Assembly: GCA_024710585.1 (NCBI GenBank)
Contig: JANJUM010000205.1
Span: 1-43,618 of the forward strand
DNA: 43,618 nt
Direction: 5' to 3'
Source: Desulforhopalus sp.
GTDB taxonomy: Bacteria > Desulfobacterota > Desulfobulbia > Desulfobulbales > Desulfocapsaceae
The position numbers and the translations under genes were made by a program. Under the pieces are notes generated by a model. The model saw nothing but the letters and a program-made list of their open reading frames with translations. It was not told where the DNA came from and searched no databases. The number at the start of each line of letters is the position of its first letter. Position 1 is the stretch's first letter. Shown here in pieces: positions 20,125-38,730 of this stretch.

Positions 20125-23100
20125 TCAGCTTTCGCGCAACGCTTGGCGCACCACCTGCAGCAGGCCCTCGCGGGTATAGGGCTTGGGGGCGATGCCCCGA
20201 AAGCCGTGGCGTCGATAGTCGGCGAGTACCGGGTCTTCGGCGTAGCCGCTGGAGACGATGACCCGCGCCTGCGGATCGAGGTCGAGGAGTCTTGTCACAG
20301 CCTCACGACCGCCCATGCCGCCGGGGATGGTCAGGTCCATGATGACCAGATCGAAGGGCTGGCCGCGTTCCATGGCGCGGCGGTAGCTGACGATGGCCTC
20401 GCGGCCCTCGTGGGTGATCTCGGTGAGAAAGCCTTCCTTGGCGAGGAAACGGGCGGCGACCTTGCAGATCATCTCTTCGTCGTCCATGATGAGAACGCGG
20501 CGTGGGCGGCTGTCATCCTGGCTGGGGAGGGGGGCGGCCGCCGGAGGCGAGGCAATCCTCTCGTCAGCGGGGTCCGGTGCCGGCAGGTAGAGGGTGAAGG
20601 TCGAGCCGATGTCGGGGGTCGAGTCGACGACGATGCCGCCGCCATGCTTCTTGACGATGGTGTAGGTGATGGCCAGGCCGAGGCCGCGGCCGAAGCGCTT
20701 GGTGGTGTAATAGGGGTCGAAGATTCGCGCCACATGGCGATGTTCGATGCCGACACCCTCGTCGCGGAAGGTGGCGCGGACATAGCGGCCGGGCTTCAGC
20801 CCGGCGATCTCCCCCTCGCCGACGACGCGGTTGACGAGGGTGATGAAGAGGTGGCCGCCTTCGGGCATGGCCTGCTTGGCGTTGATGGTCAGGTTGGAGA
20901 AGACCTGCTGCATCTGGCTCTTATCGACCTCGGTCACCCACAGGTCGGGGGCGATGTCGAAGATCGGTTTGACATTGCTGCCGGAGAGGTCGAAGCGCAC
21001 CACTTCCTCGACGAGGCTGGAGATGCTCACCCCCTCGCGCACCGGCACGCCGCCCTTGGCGAAGATGAGCAACTGCTGGGTGAGGTGCGTGGCCCGCTCC
21101 ATGGAGCGCTGGGCGTCGCGCAGGTGCTCCATGGCCGGGTGGTCGGGCTGCAGCTCGGCGGTGGCGATGGCCAGGCTGCCGAACAGCCCGGTGAGGATGT
21201 TGTTGAAGTCGTGGGCGATGCCACCGGCCAGGGTGCCGATGCTTTCCAGCTTGTGGATCTTCTGCTGGTCTTCCTCAGTGCGCTTGGCGGCGCTGATGTC
21301 CTCGCAGGAGACGACGATACTGGTGACCCGCTCGCGATTCTTGAGGGGGTAGATGTGCACGCTCAGCCAGCGGTCCTTGGCTGTCGCGCCCTCGCCCTCG
21401 CCGGGCAGCAGGTACTCAGGGATGAAGACCGCCTCGCCCTGGTAGGCGCGGCGGACAGAGGGCAGCAGGTTGGCGCGCGCCGGGTCGGCGTGGAGGAGGA
21501 TGTTGAAGCGGTTGATCATCGCCGGGGCGCTGTCACCCCAGAGCTTTTCACAGGCGTGGTTGGCGCCGACGAGCAGGCCGTCGAGGTCGTAGATCTCCAC
21601 CGCCGCCGGCGACTGCTCGATGACCATCTTCAGCCGCTCCTCGCTCTCCTGCAGCTTCTCCTCGGCCCACTTGCGCTCGGTGCTGTCGTGGATGATGGCC
21701 AGTACGCCGATGATGTGGCCGTTGCGGTCGCGCAGAGGGGAATAGCGCCCTTCGAAAAAACCCTCCCGCCCCAGCTGGCGGTGGACGTAGGGCTGGTTGG
21801 CGACGATGGCCGGCTCCCCCCGCAGTACGGCACGCAAAACCTCTTCCTGCCCGTTGGCGCGGAGGAAGGGGAAGAGCTCGAGCAGCGAGCCGTTGAGACA
21901 GTCTTCGCGCTTGACGCCCCACATGCGCTCCATGGCCGGGTTCCAGATCTTGATCTGCAGGCTGCTGTCGCAGGTGAGGATGCCGTCCATGCTGCCGTTG
22001 ATGGTGCTCTCGCTGAAGGCGCTGGCTTCGGTGAGCTCGATGTTCTTGAGGTGCAGCTCCTCGTTCAGGGCGATGAGCTCCTCGTTGCTCGATTCGAGTT
22101 CCTCCTTGGCTGCCTCGAGTTCCTCGTTGACGCTCTGCAGCTCTTCGTTGGTGGACTGCACCTCCTCGTTGGCCGACCACAGCTCCTGGTTGACCTCGTC
22201 CTTCTCCTCGATGATGGTCTGCAGGTACTCCTTGGTGGCCATGAGCTCGCGGCGCAGCTCGTGCAGTTCCTGCTCGCTGCGACCGTCGTCGTCGCCCTCG
22301 GCCAGGGGGGTGCCGGCTGGCGCTGCCTCCTGCTCCCGCTCTCCCTCGAAGAGGATGAGGAAGAACATCTCGCCGTCCCCGGCGTTGGCGAAGGGGTGGA
22401 CGGAGACGTCGACGGTGTACTGCCCCTCGTCACGTGTGAAGGGGATATTGCGCTTACGCACCGTTCTGCCGGTGCGCTTGACCTCCTCGACGGCCACATA
22501 GAGGTCGGGCATGAGGCTGTTGCCGGCCATTTTCGAGAGCTTGAGGCTGGCTTCGCCGGACGCCGGTTCGAGGTATCTGGCGGTGCGGCCATGGAAGCGG
22601 CGGATGTGCATGTCGGCGTCGACCAGCACCCCGGGCGGGGTGTGGCGCTGCAGCAGCAGTCGCTCGATCTGCCGGTCGAGTTCCTCCAGCTCCGGGCCCT
22701 TGAGGGGCTGCGGCGCTTCGCCTTGGCTTCGTATTTTGTTGTTGAAGGCCGGCTGGTTCACCGGGAAGCGGTAGGGGGACCTGCTGCCGACAAAGCGCTT
22801 GCAGTAGATGTTGCCATGGGAGTCGAAGGGGGTGAACAGCTCGGGGAAACGGCCGAGGCTCTCGGAGGTGCCGAGGAGCAGGAAGCCGCTCGGCTTGAGG
22901 GCGAAATGGAAGAGGGGGATGACGGTGGCCTGGAAGGTGGCGTCGAAGTAGATGAGCAGGTTGCGGCAGCTGAGCAAGTCGATGCTCGGGAAGGGCGGGT
23001 CCTGGGTGATGTCCTGGGTGGCGAAGACGCACATCTCGCGGATGCGCTTGATGACCCGGTAGCCCTGGGCGGTCTTGTCGAAAAAGCGCTCGAGCCGCTC

Positions 23101-23682
23101 GGCGGAGATGTTCTTGATGCTCTTCTCCCCATAGATGGCGGCGCGGGCCACGCCGATGTGGCGGTCGACGAGGTCGGTGCCGAAGAACTGCGCTCCCACC
23201 TCGAGGCGGTGCGCCTCGAGAAACTCATAGAGGCAGATGGCGAGTGAGTAGACTTCCTCGCCGGTGGAGCAGCCTGGCACCCAGATGCGGATCGGGCTCT
23301 TGACGGTACGGTTTTCGACGAGGCGCGGGAAAATGTCATCCTTTAAGGTGTCGAAGACCTGGGGATCGCGAAAGAACTCGGTGAAAAAGAGCAGCAGGTC
23401 GCGATAGAGCTGCCGAAGTTCCTGATCGTCCCTCTCGAGGGCGGCTGCGTACTCGGCGAAGGTGGCGACCTTGCTCAGGGCCATGCGCCGCTGGCAGCGC
23501 CGCAGCACCGTGGACTGGCGGTAGTGGGAGAAGTCGACGCCGCTGCTGTCGAGGAGCAGGCGGAGGATGCGGCTGAAGGCCTCCGCCTCTTCCGCGGAGG
23601 CGGTGGGCTGCCATGGTGCGGGGTCGATGTCGTCGCCGATGTCGTCGTTGTTATCCGCACAAGGCGGGGTGGTCAGGTCCAT
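20125..23682 (-). CDS. CheR-PAS-histidine kinase-receiver hybrid protein (no CheB domain)
   Basis: A 1185-residue cytoplasmic signalling protein. In order: a CheR-type methyltransferase domain (about 30-300, SAM motif VPGCSTGEEVYSLAI); a PAS-like domain; a long coiled coil (about 470-545) of repeated NEEL/NEEV heptads; two PAS domains; a histidine kinase dimerisation segment GGIAHDFNN with H824; an ATPase domain ending GRGLGLAITY; and a C-terminal receiver with phosphoacceptor D1116 (VIMDLTIPGG). Relatives usually start with a CheB methylesterase domain, which is absent here; the ATG start begins a short acidic tail just before CheR. No membrane helix is seen, so input is probably cytosolic. 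Its target is unknown, and no chemoreceptor gene is nearby. Confidence 0.9.
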   Translation of the reverse strand: MDLTTPPCADNNDDIGDDIDPAPWQPTASAEEAEAFSRILRLLLDSSGVDFSHYRQSTVLRRCQRRMALSKVATFAEYAAALERDDQELRQLYRDLLLFFTEFFRDPQVFDTLKDDIFPRLVENRTVKSPIRIWVPGCSTGEEVYSLAICLYEFLEAHRLEVGAQFFGTDLVDRHIGVARAAIYGEKSIKNISAERLERFFDKTAQGYRVIKRIREMCVFATQDITQDPPFPSIDLLSCRNLLIYFDATFQATVIPLFHFALKPSGFLLLGTSESLGRFPELFTPFDSHGNIYCKRFVGSRSPYRFPVNQPAFNNKIRSQGEAPQPLKGPELEELDRQIERLLLQRHTPPGVLVDADMHIRRFHGRTARYLEPASGEASLKLSKMAGNSLMPDLYVAVEEVKRTGRTVRKRNIPFTRDEGQYTVDVSVHPFANAGDGEMFFLILFEGEREQEAAPAGTPLAEGDDDGRSEQELHELRRELMATKEYLQTIIEEKDEVNQELWSANEEVQSTNEELQSVNEELEAAKEELESSNEELIALNEELHLKNIELTEASAFSESTINGSMDGILTCDSSLQIKIWNPAMERMWGVKREDCLNGSLLELFPFLRANGQEEVLRAVLRGEPAIVANQPYVHRQLGREGFFEGRYSPLRDRNGHIIGVLAIIHDSTERKWAEEKLQESEERLKMVIEQSPAAVEIYDLDGLLVGANHACEKLWGDSAPAMINRFNILLHADPARANLLPSVRRAYQGEAVFIPEYLLPGEGEGATAKDRWLSVHIYPLKNRERVTSIVVSCEDISAAKRTEEDQQKIHKLESIGTLAGGIAHDFNNILTGLFGSLAIATAELQPDHPAMEHLRDAQRSMERATHLTQQLLIFAKGGVPVREGVSISSLVEEVVRFDLSGSNVKPIFDIAPDLWVTEVDKSQMQQVFSNLTINAKQAMPEGGHLFITLVNRVVGEGEIAGLKPGRYVRATFRDEGVGIEHRHVARIFDPYYTTKRFGRGLGLAITYTIVKKHGGGIVVDSTPDIGSTFTLYLPAPDPADERIASPPAAAPLPSQDDSRPRRVLIMDDEEMICKVAARFLAKEGFLTEITHEGREAIVSYRRAMERGQPFDLVIMDLTIPGGMGGREAVTRLLDLDPQARVIVSSGYAEDPVLADYRRHGFRGIAPKPYTREGLLQVVRQALRES

Positions 23683-34392: not shown

Positions 34393-35676
34393 ATGGAACG
34401 ATTGTTGACCATCGCCGCGGCGGCGGCCATAGGCACCGGATTCTACCTGTGGTTTTCGGCGATGCTGCGCCGCCCCGCCTTTCGCCAGTTCATCGCCGAC
34501 CACCAGTGGCTGCTGCACCCGAACTCCATCTGCTACTGGCGCACGGCCATGGCCCTGGTGGGCTTCGTGCTCTATTTTGGCGTCGGCTGGCAATCCATCG
34601 CCATTTATATCTTCACCTTCGCCGCCATCCTCGACGGCGTCGACGGCATCGTCGCCAGGAGCTGCAACATGGCGACCAAGCTCGGCGAGTGGCTCGACCC
34701 CCTGTGCGACAAGCTCACCTATCTGCCGCCGCTCATCGCCTTTGCCTATCTCGGTATCATGTCGGTGGAGCTGGTCTGGGCCCTGGTGGCGGTGGAAGTG
34801 GTGGGGCAGTTTTTCGCGCGGCATATCCTTGCCAGGCTGAAGATCTCCGGCGCGGCCAATAACTTCGGCAAGATCAAGGCGATCATCTGCTTCGCCCTGG
34901 TCATCTACTGCGCCCTGCTCCATGGCCAGTCCGGGGTCATTGACATGGGCAACGAGGTGCTCATCGCCTGCCTCGTCCTCGCCGCCGCCTCGGTGGCATG
35001 CAAGTTCATCCCCAACCGCCTCTATGCCGACAGCCTGTCGACGCTCAACTTCATCTGCGGTGTGGCCAGCCTGGTGCTGACCTACAACCACCGCTTCGCC
35101 TGGGCGATCTTCGCCATCATCGTCGGCCAGCTCTTCGACCTCTTCGACGGGCGCATGGCCGAGAAGCATGGCGGCACCAAGTACGGGCCTTATCTCGACG
35201 ACGTCGCCGACTTCGTCAGCTTCGGCCTCTCGCCGGCCTATGTGGTCACCCTCAAGGGCGGTTCCTGGGCGTGGATCTTCGGGCTGATCTATATCGCCGG
35301 GGTCGCCTACCGCTTGATCCGCTTCGTCCAGGTCGACAAGAAGCGCACCGATCTCCCCTACGGCATCTTCAACGGCCTGCCCAGCCCGGCGGGCGCCCTG
35401 GTGGTGCTGGGCGCCGCCCTGGTAGTGCCCCCCCAGTACCTGTGGCTGGTGGCCCTCATCTCGGTGGGGCTGATGGTCAGCACGGTGCGCTTCGCCCACT
35501 TCGGCCGGGTCATCCTCAAGGAGATCCCCAAGCCGCTCTTCTTCGTCGCCTGCGCGGCGATGGTCCTGGTCATCTCCTACATCCTCAAGACGAGGAACGT
35601 CGAGATGTTCGGCTCGCTGATCCTCTTTACCGTCCTCACCTATATGGTCGCCGGGCGGAGATATCTCAAGAAATAG
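34393..35676 (+). CDS. tandem CDP-alcohol phosphatidyltransferase (PgsA-like + PssA-like fusion)
   Basis: A 427-residue integral membrane protein with two complete CDP-alcohol phosphotransferase motifs. The first is D81-x2-D84-G-x2-A-R, then G98, D102 and D106. The second is D249-x2-D252-G-x2-A, then G265, D269 and D273. The second is followed by ADFVSFGLSPA, the signature seen in phosphatidylserine synthases, and has Glu in place of the Arg after Ala. Single enzymes have about 180-250 residues and one motif, so this is about twice the normal length. Each half has several hydrophobic helices. It probably makes phospholipid head-group derivatives from CDP-diacylglycerol, possibly two different products. 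The next gene, trkH, is convergent only 11 bases away. Confidence 0.85.
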   Translation: MERLLTIAAAAAIGTGFYLWFSAMLRRPAFRQFIADHQWLLHPNSICYWRTAMALVGFVLYFGVGWQSIAIYIFTFAAILDGVDGIVARSCNMATKLGEWLDPLCDKLTYLPPLIAFAYLGIMSVELVWALVAVEVVGQFFARHILARLKISGAANNFGKIKAIICFALVIYCALLHGQSGVIDMGNEVLIACLVLAAASVACKFIPNRLYADSLSTLNFICGVASLVLTYNHRFAWAIFAIIVGQLFDLFDGRMAEKHGGTKYGPYLDDVADFVSFGLSPAYVVTLKGGSWAWIFGLIYIAGVAYRLIRFVQVDKKRTDLPYGIFNGLPSPAGALVVLGAALVVPPQYLWLVALISVGLMVSTVRFAHFGRVILKEIPKPLFFVACAAMVLVISYILKTRNVEMFGSLILFTVLTYMVAGRRYLKK

Positions 35677-35687
35677 GGGGTAGCCCC

Positions 35688-37148
35688 TCAGTTACGGCGC
35701 AGATCCCAGAACTCCGGGCAGAGCATGGCCAGAAAGGGGATCAATTCAAGGCGGCCGACGATCATGTCGGCGGTGAAGATAGCCTTGGTCAGCCAGTGCA
35801 GGGTACCGAAGCTGGCCATGGGGCCGATGTCGCCAAAGCCGGGGCCGACGTTGCCGATGGTGGCGGCGGTGCCGACGAAGCCGATGGTGGGGTTTTGTTC
35901 GATCATCGTCACCGCCAGTCCGGAAAAGAGCATCAGCACCAGGTAGAAAAGGACGAAGCCGAGCATCTGACGCTGCACGTCGTCCGCTACCGTCACCCTG
36001 TCGATCTTGATGGGCAGCACCGCCTTAGGGTGTACCAGCTGGTCGATCTCCCGCTTGAGAAAGCGTCCCACGAAGAGGACGCGAATCACCTTGACCCCGC
36101 CGCCCGCCGACCCGGCGCAGCCGCCGATGAGCATCATGGCGAAGATAACCGCCTGGGCCGGTACCGTCCACAAGGCGAAGTCGGCCGAGGCGAAGCCGGT
36201 GGTGGTGACGATCGACACCACCTGGAAGGTGCCGTTGCGCAGGCTCGCCGCCAGTTCCCCGCCGGGAGCGGTGTAGACGAAGAAGGCCAGCAGCAGCGAA
36301 GCGGCGACGGTGATCGACAGGTAGAGGCGGAACTCCTCGTTGCCGAGCAGGGCCTGCGCCTTGCCCTTGAAAAAGCACTTGTACTGCAGGGCGAAGTTGG
36401 CCCCGGCAAGGGTCATGAACAGGGTGACTATCCAGGTGATCGTCGGGCTCTGGTAGCCCATGATCGACTGCGGGTGGGGGGAGAAACCGCCGGCGGCCAT
36501 GGTTGACAGGGAATTGCAGACGGCATCGAAGAGTGGCATGCCGGCCAGGGCGAGCAGGGCGATTTCCAGGAGGGTCAGCACCAGGTAGATCAGCCACAGG
36601 GCTTTGGCGGTGTGGGCAACCCGCGGGGTGAGTTTGTCCTCGGTCGGTCCCGGGGCTTCGGCGAAGAAGATGCGTCGCCCGGCTACGCCGAGCTGTGGCA
36701 GGATGGCGACGAAGAGCACGATGATGCCCATGCCGCCCAGCCACTGGGTGAGGCTGCGCCAGAAGAAGAAGGCCTTGGGGTAGAGGTTGAAGTCGAGGAG
36801 GATGGTGGCCCCGGTGGTGGTAAAGCCCGACACCGACTCGAAATAGGCGTCGAGGGGGGAAAGCCCGAAGAAGACGAAGGGCACGGCGCCGATGGCGGCG
36901 ACGAGGATCCAGCACAGGGTGACGATGAGCAGCCCTTCGCTGCGCTTGATATTATCGAAGTTATGGCCGAAGTGGCCATAGCGGCTGCACAGCAGGCCCA
37001 GGCCGAGGGAGAGCGCCGCGGCGACGAGGAAGGGGGCGACCGCCTGCTTTTCGCCATAGAGCAGGGCGACGACGACTGGGGTGGGGACGATGGCCCCGAA
37101 GGCGATGAGGATGATGCCGAGCGCGGCGGCGATGGTCCGGGGGCTCAT
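35688..37148 (-). CDS. trkH: Trk potassium uptake channel subunit (TrkH)
   Basis: A 486-residue inner-membrane K+ translocating subunit with four M1-P-M2 repeats. The four selectivity-filter loops are visible: SVSGFTTTGATI, STMAAGGFSPH, IVTTTGFASADF and ATIGNVGPGFGD. Long hydrophobic helices span the protein. The ATG at 37148 overlaps the trkA stop by 4 bases (ATGA), so TrkH synthesis is coupled to TrkA, its gating partner. Length matches the family. Confidence 0.95.
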   Translation of the reverse strand: MSPRTIAAALGIILIAFGAIVPTPVVVALLYGEKQAVAPFLVAAALSLGLGLLCSRYGHFGHNFDNIKRSEGLLIVTLCWILVAAIGAVPFVFFGLSPLDAYFESVSGFTTTGATILLDFNLYPKAFFFWRSLTQWLGGMGIIVLFVAILPQLGVAGRRIFFAEAPGPTEDKLTPRVAHTAKALWLIYLVLTLLEIALLALAGMPLFDAVCNSLSTMAAGGFSPHPQSIMGYQSPTITWIVTLFMTLAGANFALQYKCFFKGKAQALLGNEEFRLYLSITVAASLLLAFFVYTAPGGELAASLRNGTFQVVSIVTTTGFASADFALWTVPAQAVIFAMMLIGGCAGSAGGGVKVIRVLFVGRFLKREIDQLVHPKAVLPIKIDRVTVADDVQRQMLGFVLFYLVLMLFSGLAVTMIEQNPTIGFVGTAATIGNVGPGFGDIGPMASFGTLHWLTKAIFTADMIVGRLELIPFLAMLCPEFWDLRRN

Positions 37149-38482
37149 GCGAAGAAGAAGGTTTTGATTTTCTCCGAGTCTTCCTTCATGCTGAAGATCT
37201 TCAGCCGGTCGCGCGGGGAGAGGACGGTGTCGCCGTGGGGGATGATCACCCGGTGGCCGCGGATGACCACGCCGATGATGGCCTTGGCCGGCAGCTGCAG
37301 GTCGCGGATGCGTTTTTCCTCGAAGTTGTCGGGCAGGGTGAGGCTGAGCATCTCCCCCTTGCCGCCTTCGATGAGGGCGACCACGTCGACCTTCTGCGCC
37401 TGGACGCGGTTGAGCACTTCGGTGAGCGCCGAGGCCTTGGGCGAGACCACCACGTCTATGCCGACATGCTCGAAGAGCTCGTAGTTCTGGATGTTGCCCA
37501 CTCTGGTGACGATGCGCTTGGCGCCGAGCTGCTTGAGCAGGAGGGAGCAGAGCAGGTTCTTCTCGTCGTTGTTGGTGGTGCAGATGCAGGCGTCGGCCTG
37601 GGCGATGGACTCGCTCTCGAGGAGTTCGAGGTCGGTGCCGTCGCCCTGCAGGACCAGCGTCTTTTTCAGGGAGTCGGCAAGGAACAGGCAGCGCTGCTGG
37701 GAGTGCTCGATGAGCTTGACCTTGATGCCGCTCTTCTCGAGGCGCTCGGCGAGCATGAAGCCGACGGCGCCGCCGCCGACGATGGACACCGTCCTGATCT
37801 TGCGTTCGTGGTTGAAGATATCGGCGGCGAGGGCGTCGAGGGCCACACCGGAGCCGATGAAGAACACCTTGTCGTTGTGGGTGATGACCGTGTCGCCGTT
37901 GGGGATGAAGAGCTTGCCCTCGCGGGTGATGCCGGGGATGAGGACATGCTGAGGGAAGCGGCAGTCCCTGATGGCGCGGTCGACGAGAGTCGAGTCCTTC
38001 TTGATGCGATATTCGAAGAGCTTGGCCTTGCCGCCGGCGAGGAATTCGACGTCCAGGGCCTCGGGCACGGAGATGATGCGGTAGATGTCCTGGGTGAGCA
38101 GCTGCTCCGGCCAGATGACCGAATCGATATCGTAGCGGGTCTGGTACTGGTTGTTGCTCATCGAGGAGAAGTTGCGGTACAAGGAGGCTTTGCCGACAAA
38201 GCAGATGGTTTCGGTGTCGGCGAGCTTCTTGATCGTCCAGCAGGCGACGATGTTGGCCTCGTCGATGGCGGCGCAGGCGATGAAGAGGTCGGCCTTCTGC
38301 GCCTCGATGCGCTGCAGCGCGGCGATGTCGCCGCCGCTGCCCTCGACGAGGCTGACGTCGAGGTTGTGGAACTTTTCGCTCAGCTCGCCGCTCTCATGAA
38401 GGATGGTGATATTGTGCTGCTGGTGCAACCTGGTGGCGACGAGGTAGCTGATATCGGTGGTGCCGTAGATGATGATGTTCAT
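37145..38482 (-). CDS. trkA: Trk potassium uptake regulatory protein (TrkA)
   Basis: A 445-residue cytoplasmic gating ring protein with two RCK (TrkA-N/TrkA-C) units. The second Rossmann fold carries VSIVGGGAVGFMLAERLE and a following acidic HIEH-like strand end (LIEHSQQ). The first begins MNIIIYGTTDISYLVATRL, which lacks the usual GxGxxG glycines, so its nucleotide site may be degenerate. Each unit ends with a TrkA-C domain. The ATG giving MNIIIYG is used; the longer frame upstream is not domain-like. It is the first gene of trkAH. Confidence 0.93.
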   Translation of the reverse strand: MNIIIYGTTDISYLVATRLHQQHNITILHESGELSEKFHNLDVSLVEGSGGDIAALQRIEAQKADLFIACAAIDEANIVACWTIKKLADTETICFVGKASLYRNFSSMSNNQYQTRYDIDSVIWPEQLLTQDIYRIISVPEALDVEFLAGGKAKLFEYRIKKDSTLVDRAIRDCRFPQHVLIPGITREGKLFIPNGDTVITHNDKVFFIGSGVALDALAADIFNHERKIRTVSIVGGGAVGFMLAERLEKSGIKVKLIEHSQQRCLFLADSLKKTLVLQGDGTDLELLESESIAQADACICTTNNDEKNLLCSLLLKQLGAKRIVTRVGNIQNYELFEHVGIDVVVSPKASALTEVLNRVQAQKVDVVALIEGGKGEMLSLTLPDNFEEKRIRDLQLPAKAIIGVVIRGHRVIIPHGDTVLSPRDRLKIFSMKEDSEKIKTFFFA

Positions 38483-38549
38483 GGGGGAGTGGAAGAGGGG
38501 GCGGCGGTTGTGGCGGCTCGTTGACTGATTTCGGCCGGGAAGGAGCGGC

Positions 38550-38558
38550 AGTATACCA
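38550..38558 (-). promoter_or_regulatory. extended -10 promoter candidate for trkAH
   Basis: On the minus strand TG-G-TATACT (38558-38550) is an extended -10 element about 70 bases upstream of the trkA ATG. The -35 region is poor, as is usual for extended -10 promoters. Confidence 0.45.
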
Positions 38559-38605
38559 TGGCCGGCGTCGCGGCGCATCGCCCTTTTTTTCCCGACTCGG
38601 GGCGG

Positions 38606-38638
38606 GCCGCAGCTTGCCCCTTGCCGAAGGGGCGCGGC
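38606..38638. other. stem-loop between trkA and the nifU-like gene
   Basis: GCCGC (38606-38610) pairs with GCGGC (38634-38638), enclosing a hairpin GCCCCTT-GCCG-AAGGGGC (38616-38633). It lies in the divergent 248-base gap and has no T-run on its 3' side. The run CTTGCC...AAGG...GGGGG resembles part of the palindromic element near 4600 on the opposite strand. Confidence 0.4.
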
Positions 38639-38730
38639 GGGGGTAGGCTTAAGGACGTCTCGGCCTGGCACAGCCGCAGATACCGAAAAACTCGCCTGGC
38701 CAGCCCTCGCCCTCCTAATCTTCTCCCGCT

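Follow-up and report, generated by a model that had tools for sequence, protein, structure and literature searches.

The window, that is, the whole stretch of 43,618 nucleotides analysed here, carries an open reading frame that joins two CDP-alcohol phosphatidyltransferase (CDP-AP) domains in one chain, and the coordinates of its features are collected in Table 1. The first-pass annotation had placed complete CDP-AP catalytic motifs at residues 81-106 and 249-273, and both were borne out: the first reads D81-G-V-D84-G-I-V-A88-R89...G98...D102...D106 and the second D249-L-F-D252-G-R-M-A256-E257...G265...D269...D273. Scored alone with Pfam PF01066, the first half reaches 84.8 bits and the second 55 bits, both far beyond the family cut-off of 22 bits.

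Table 1. Features of the tandem CDP-AP gene in the window (residue numbers refer to the encoded protein).
Feature	Coordinates	Strand	Basis
Tandem CDP-alcohol phosphatidyltransferase gene (PgsA-like half and PssA-like half), 427 aa	34393..35676	+	Open from ATG; PF01066; AF2
Additional N-terminal helix, residues 2-25, ahead of CDP-AP domain 1	34396..34467	+	AF2 secondary structure
Domain 1, residues 41-203, PgsA-like CDP-AP, six helices	34513..35001	+	PF01066, TIGR00560, VIA-align, tree
Catalytic motif 1, D81xxD84G85xxA88R89...G98xxxD102xxxD106	34633..34710	+	Invariant in 80/80
G159-K160-I161-K162, GKxK signature as in canonical PgsA	34867..34878	+	80/80
Inter-domain linker, four residues, 204-207, from the last helix of domain 1 to the first helix of domain 2	35002..35013	+	AF2
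Domain 2, residues 208-427, PssA-like CDP-AP, eight helices	35014..35673	+	PF01066, TIGR00473, VIA-align, MjPSS topology
Catalytic motif 2, D249xxD252G253xxA256...G265xxxD269xxxD273	35137..35211	+	Invariant in 80/80; residue 257 variable
A272-DFVSFG278, PS-synthase-like segment	35206..35226	+	Alignment rows
R307-L-I-R310-F311, equivalents of MjPSS Arg101, Arg104 and Phe105	35311..35325	+	80/80; MjPSS alignment
F326-N-GLPSPAGA335, FxGLPxPA signature of PssA	35368..35397	+	Alignment rows

Operon partners gave no clue to function because the neighbours of the tandem change from locus to locus: the commonest neighbour family occurs at 6/79 loci, many of which are short, and the TolC-like neighbour in the window recurs at 4/80 loci. 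Convergent genes for TrkH and TrkA potassium uptake adjoin the tandem (35688-38671, minus strand), each found at 2/80 loci, and a scan for promoters was uninformative. Elsewhere in the window, a single chain of 1185 amino acids (20125-23682, minus strand) unites a CheR methyltransferase with PAS, histidine-kinase ATPase and receiver domains.

A scan of related contigs yielded 108 matches, from which 80 loci were kept; by record title these belong to Desulfobulbaceae, Desulfobacteraceae and related groups, or are assigned just to delta- or other proteobacteria. Together with the window they make up the 81 close sequences, of which 80 are full-length, one locus being cut at a contig end. Two full motifs were present in 81/81, ruling out a chance or assembly join as their origin. 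Every Asp and Gly of both motifs is invariant in the 80 full-length sequences, a count that includes a selection bias because the loci were found with query peptide patterns, one of which spans G98. Tandems found with the family profile instead of query patterns carried both motifs in 13/13 cases read from related genomes, and the profile-found tandems L112 and L113 likewise have both motifs in full. Among the profile-found tandems read from the wider phylum, both motifs were present in 10/12, the other two being proteins of about 500 amino acids that we refer to as type B. No loss of catalytic residues was seen in either half among the 80 full-length tandems of type A, to which the window protein belongs.

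We compared the two halves with curated profiles, with known structures and with each other. The best NCBIfam profile for the first half is pgsA (TIGR00560; 61.2 bits, cut-off 109.1), with a further match to the cardiolipin synthase ClsA (46.7 bits), and the best profile for the second half is archaetidylserine synthase (79.4 bits, cut-off 200), with 72.2 bits against pssA (TIGR00473; equivalog cut-off 107). Under the curated NCBI cut-offs, neither half counts as a member of PgsA or PssA. In a PDB sequence search, the first half led to PgsA of Staphylococcus aureus and the second to the type II PS synthase MjPSS; weak matches to IPCT-DIPPS (4mnd) and AF2299 (4o6m) of A. fulgidus came from the sequence and structure searches.

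The AF2 model, built from an alignment of 49 rows (mean pLDDT 82.4, pTM 0.72), predicts six core helices for the first half and eight for the second. A membrane helix bundle with six core helices is predicted for each half and agrees with the structure matches. In the second half, the predicted short helices 5 and 6 and the strands 325-327 and 366-368 match the topology of MjPSS, which comprises eight helices, of which helices 5 and 6 are short, and two short strands according to PMC8633023. Foldseek ranked MjPSS first and PgsA next for this model. With VIA-align, residues 40-208 of the model superimpose on S. aureus PgsA (7drj_B; Z 17.1, 168 aligned residues, 2.8 A) and residues 205-427 on MjPSS (7pow_B; Z 19.9, 188 aligned residues, 4.0 A), and the next family after 7pow and 7drj reached only Z 12.5.

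In a tree of 85 domain cores, the first halves and PgsA are split from the second halves and PssA at 100/99, with long branches meeting at the first halves of a divergent tandem, A-prime. A BLAST comparison of half against half matched over 41 amino acids alone, around the motif (E 0.006), and this match and the tree split led us to reject an internal duplication as the source of the halves. By profile, tree and structure search, the first half looks like PgsA and the second like type II PssA. The first-pass annotation had proposed that the halves use different substrates, and this part is supported computationally by the tree, the structure search and the genome pattern given below. One argument it offered, AR in the first half and AE in the second, did not hold up as a substrate marker since residue 257 varies (Glu in 42/80, Leu in 25/80, and Val, Met or another residue in the remainder).

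In the genome counts below, standalone PgsA and PssA are scored against these profile cut-offs; the contig scan covers close relatives, and the wider genome sample covers the phylum of the window. A profile search of the contigs of the window genome (G000) gave just two PF01066 matches, both inside the tandem ORF, which answers the question raised in the first pass of whether separate pgsA or pssA genes exist there: none was found besides the tandem. The genome does have psd, encoding PS decarboxylase, and cdsA. A second PS-decarboxylase-like match lies on another contig (G000:C155:4445-5059) in an open frame of 788 amino acids, compared with mostly 340-455 amino acids for comparable second matches in relatives. 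The E. coli-type PssA (NF006946, type I, phospholipase D-type) had no match at all in the window genome and exceeded its cut-off in 0/39 related genomes, 18 of which gave weak matches of 20-32 bits against a cut-off of 314; we therefore rejected it as a hidden source of PS.

Eighteen of these 39 genomes carry the tandem (G000-G010, G014, G016, G017, G023, G029, G032 and G037) and 21 do not. Both full motifs lie in one ORF in 16/18 carriers, namely the window, L112, L113 and 13 others; in G037, two contig ends each hold a piece of the tandem with one of the motifs. In G017, a single-contig genome with PgsA and without PssA over the cut-off, the tandem (L114) lies in pieces across frames, owing to either a sequencing error or genuine decay. 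PgsA was over its cut-off in 3/18 carriers and 21/21 others (Fisher 3e-8), PssA in 4/18 and 16/21 (Fisher 0.001), and both were under their cut-offs in 12/18 and 0/21 (Fisher 5e-6), values that ignore kinship, nine of the 18 carriers being of one genus. A psd gene was found in 18/18 carriers and 20/21 others. In these counts, the tandem and the standalone enzymes PgsA and PssA are anti-correlated across the related genomes. The carriers with a standalone PgsA are G001, G007 and G017, those with a standalone PssA are G001, G010, G016 and G023, and G045, too, has a canonical PgsA beside the tandem, as judged from its PF01066 score. Five of the 39 genomes have neither the tandem nor PssA over the cut-off: G015, in which psd is absent too, and G021, G026, G027 and G035, all four of which have a type-B relative of about 500 amino acids together with PgsA over the cut-off.

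Among 158 genomes of the phylum, PssA was over its cut-off in 139 and PgsA in 133. Twelve of the 19 genomes without PssA were inspected, and a two-match ORF was found in 12/12, with both motifs intact in ten (35-68% identity to the window protein) and type B in G144 and G164; psd was present in 11/12, the exception being G154, which has a tandem and no psd match. Counting G000 and G026, 14/19 PssA-less genomes have a two-match ORF, and G077, G130, G133, G134 and G191 lay outside the search. PgsA was not over its cut-off in 25/158 genomes, of which ten are examined tandem carriers and the other 15 uninspected. Because just ten of the 25 are examined carriers, a PgsA under the cut-off is no mark of the tandem alone in this sample; the cut-off misses other PgsA as well, and the PgsA-side signal is cleanest in the 39-genome set.

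In nine genomes (G000, G002, G009, G014, G029, G037, G043, G089 and G173) the two halves of the tandem are the sole PF01066 matches, with G037 counted from two contig ends, and psd is present in 9/9. One of the nine is the isolate Desulfocicer vacuolatum DSM 3385 (G043), whose CDP-AP matches are the tandem alone, and another (G089) is 100% complete in about 50 contigs. The tandem ORF is the sole candidate found for the PG and PE head-group steps in these genomes, provided that they do make both lipids, which psd and general knowledge of bacterial lipids would suggest. The tandem could instead be an accessory lipid enzyme, with standalone PgsA and PssA encoded in the few percent of the window genome that were not assembled. 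In favour of this, that genome consists of 276 contigs with a completeness of 95.82%, and standalone enzymes do occur in some carriers. Against it, the two genes would need to have dropped out of nine assemblies independently, G089 and D. vacuolatum DSM 3385 among them, and we regard this explanation as very improbable.

Lipid data are available for Desulfosediminicola flagellatus IMCC35005, in which PE and PG are major polar lipids by thin-layer chromatography, and PE and PG are both present in IMCC35004 and Desulfopila (PMC8497536). IMCC35005 (L021, G040) has the tandem and three further CDP-APs, none of which comes near the PF01066 score of a canonical PgsA. Because one of the further CDP-APs reaches 64.7 bits against pgsA and another 80.1 bits against pssA, as high as the tandem halves, the lipids are consistent with a role of the tandem in making both and are not proof of it. 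For D. vacuolatum, our literature search returned no paper on its lipids by title.

The residues around the two sites both support and temper the assignment of the halves. In MjPSS, the active site comprises Asp62, Ser63, Asp66, Phe105, Arg101 and Arg104, with Ser63 contacting the serine substrate and Arg49 contacting CDP-DAG (PMC8633023). Five of these six active-site residues are kept in the second half (D269, D273, F311, R307 and R310), and R307, R310 and F311 are present in 80/80 sequences. The position of Ser63 is taken by D270 in 80/80; this residue, just before the segment A272-DFVSFG278, occupies the position of a Ser that is conserved in 13/13 PssA rows, and Asp or Thr is found there across all tandem types. 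The position of Arg49 corresponds to residue 257, where Arg is not kept. The first half carries LDPxxDK and GKxK as canonical PgsA rows do. GKxK, which may be an acceptor-binding element, is found in 13/13 canonical PgsA rows and in 5/5 further canonical PgsA proteins, in 0/5 Pgs2 paralogues and in 0/6 type-B first halves. An Arg in TM4 is present in 13/13 PgsA rows and replaced by Ile or Val in type-A1 first halves. Mainly because of this replacement and that of Ser63 by Asp270, our confidence in the assignment is held down.

A Pgs2-like paralogue stands beside the tandem in six genomes (G062, G113, G120, G162, G181 and G196), and the one in G120 exceeds the PgsA cut-off with 113.7 bits. In L146 and L147, the two of these paralogues that were read, SKxTT or SKxNT replaces GKxK, and Pgs2 is probably cardiolipin-synthase-like. 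These differences bear on whether both halves are active and one of them uses another acceptor, which would be PG (yielding cardiolipin) for the first half, or choline, inositol phosphate or a non-serine amino alcohol for the second. The loss of the serine-contacting Ser to Asp270, the archaetidylserine synthase profile as top match of the second half and the ClsA match of the first speak for such a change. However, the first half has GKxK, like PgsA, where Pgs2 has [SG]Kx[TN]T, psd is present in 18/18 carriers while PssA is below its cut-off in 14/18, and the nine tandem-only genomes would be left without a known source of PGP or PS, so that we consider another acceptor rather unlikely.

Type B, read in six rows (L115, L116, L117, L118, L138 and L142), resembles the window tandem in having two CDP-AP-like halves, of which the second is PssA-like with the Asp-Asp of DDxxD. 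Unlike in the window tandem, the first half is decayed in 6/6 rows, with Gly replaced by Ala in the motif, AR by AA or AV and DP by DR, and with GKxK gone, and type-B genomes retain PgsA over the cut-off. All six of these genomes (G021, G026, G027, G035, G144 and G164) have PgsA and none has PssA over the cut-off; in the tree, the PgsA match of G027 groups with Pgs2, and no canonical PgsA was found in that genome. Known CDP-APs are dimers (PMC8633023), and the window tandem might have one active half, the other being a catalytically idle pseudo-dimer partner with a supporting role in folding, such as homodimerisation has in other CDP-APs. The decayed first half of type B is a precedent for this state. 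In type A, however, both sites are strictly conserved; a dead half, which would have spoken against the first-pass annotation, finds no counterpart in the catalytic residues, which are intact in both halves. Moreover, the six type-B genomes have PgsA over the cut-off (in G027 the Pgs2-group match), whereas 15/18 tandem carriers do not; genomes with an idle half therefore show another pattern than tandem carriers, and we consider an idle half unlikely for the window protein.

Several further relatives were encountered. A-prime (L112, L113 and L129/L130) is a divergent tandem of 421 amino acids that occurs in two further families of the same order and keeps both motifs intact, each with its AR; L112 and L113 share 27-31% identity with the window protein, and L129/L130 is a third copy cut in two by contig ends. 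The type-B genome G027 encodes a free-standing protein (L178, G027:C106) that is related to the A-prime first half, has an intact motif and reads GKRK. It may be the PgsA of that genome, is possibly the unfused form and, given that no canonical PgsA was found in G027, hints that first halves of this type do the work of PgsA. Another CDP-AP paralogue (L123, L124, L125, L154, L159, L160 and L161) is small, has the motif W[QL]G[GA]...DAxADK, reaches 57-68 bits with TIGR00560 where scored and stands beside canonical PgsA in G011. In a PssA-like paralogue (L119-L122, L155 and L157), [YI]xGLALDNN or a similar sequence replaces FxGLPxPA, as read in L119, L155 and L157, and this paralogue occurs alongside PssA over the cut-off in G022 and G024.

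We consider it likely that the tandem of these bacteria, which are of the sulfate-reducing type, is a bifunctional PGP synthase/PS synthase that has taken the place of two separate enzymes where the pathway branches at CDP-diacylglycerol. This reading draws on two intact and strictly conserved sites, two subfamily affinities, matching predicted folds, nine tandem-only genomes with psd and the anti-correlation with standalone enzymes, from which we infer the acceptor of each half. The protein would join a PgsA-type enzyme to one of the type II PssA kind in a natural fusion, with both sites working and two CDP-DAG sites per chain. Site 1 (residues 1-207) would use glycerol-3-phosphate as acceptor for the phosphatidyl group of CDP-diacylglycerol and yield PGP, from which PG follows; site 2 (residues 208-427) would use L-serine as acceptor and yield PS, from which the psd product would form PE. 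Both committed head-group steps would thereby sit on one polypeptide and draw on one CDP-diacylglycerol pool, and the tandem would stand in for both usual enzymes in the window genome and several others. That two phospholipids might arise from one such pool had been proposed in the first pass, and as a prediction it fits the tree split at 100/99, the structure search and the scarcity of standalone enzymes.

The linker has four residues, and from the helix count both motifs would be expected on the same side of the membrane. The halves may pack as a pseudo-dimer, as the first pass suggested, and both sites may face the cytoplasm; such packing would go together with two activities and does not compete with them as an explanation. 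A more far-reaching version, which we put forward tentatively and hold to be possible rather than probable, is that one protein constitutes the whole branch point as an intramolecular pseudo-dimer, with the two sites fixed at 1:1, one bound CDP-diacylglycerol pool that both share and compete for, and a PE:PG ratio set internally instead of through the amounts of two enzymes.

In bacteria with PE, PgsA and PssA compete for CDP-diacylglycerol and thereby determine the ratio of anionic to zwitterionic lipids, and how this ratio is held is an old question. With both enzymes on one chain and the separate ones then lost, their stoichiometry would be fixed, and the tandem would offer a natural system for removing each site in cis and following how the lipid balance responds. 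For annotation, standard PgsA and PssA models would make D. vacuolatum, for instance, seem to be without both genes.

No published fusion of PgsA and PssA was found by title or start of abstract among the matches listed from open PMC, and such a fusion goes unmentioned in the available parts of PMC8027125, PMC9385802, PMC11150832 and PMC3482391. A bifunctional cardiolipin/PE synthase has been described in Xanthomonas (Moser 2014, as cited in PMC11150832). Like the proposed tandem, it makes two phospholipids from one chain. The Xanthomonas enzyme reportedly belongs to the phospholipase D family. IPCT-DIPPS (4mnd) and AF2299 (4o6m) of A. fulgidus resemble the tandem in holding a CDP-AP domain within a longer two-domain chain, and their other domain is, as we take it from the IPCT name, a soluble domain of the cytidylyltransferase type and not a second membrane CDP-AP. 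In comparison with PgsA (S. aureus 7drj/7drk; TIGR00560), the first half differs in its fusion to a second CDP-AP, its extra N-terminal helix and the change of the TM4 Arg to Ile or Val, but it has the same fold and motif over residues 40-208 together with LDPxxDK and GKxK. The second half, in turn, differs from type II PSS (MjPSS 7b1k/7pow; TIGR00473; the archaetidylserine synthases of NCBIfam) in having no free N-terminus of its own, Asp in place of Ser63 and a variable residue at the Arg49 position, but it shares with these enzymes the eight helices, the two short strands and the catalytic motif as well as VSFG, RLxRF and FxGLPxPA.
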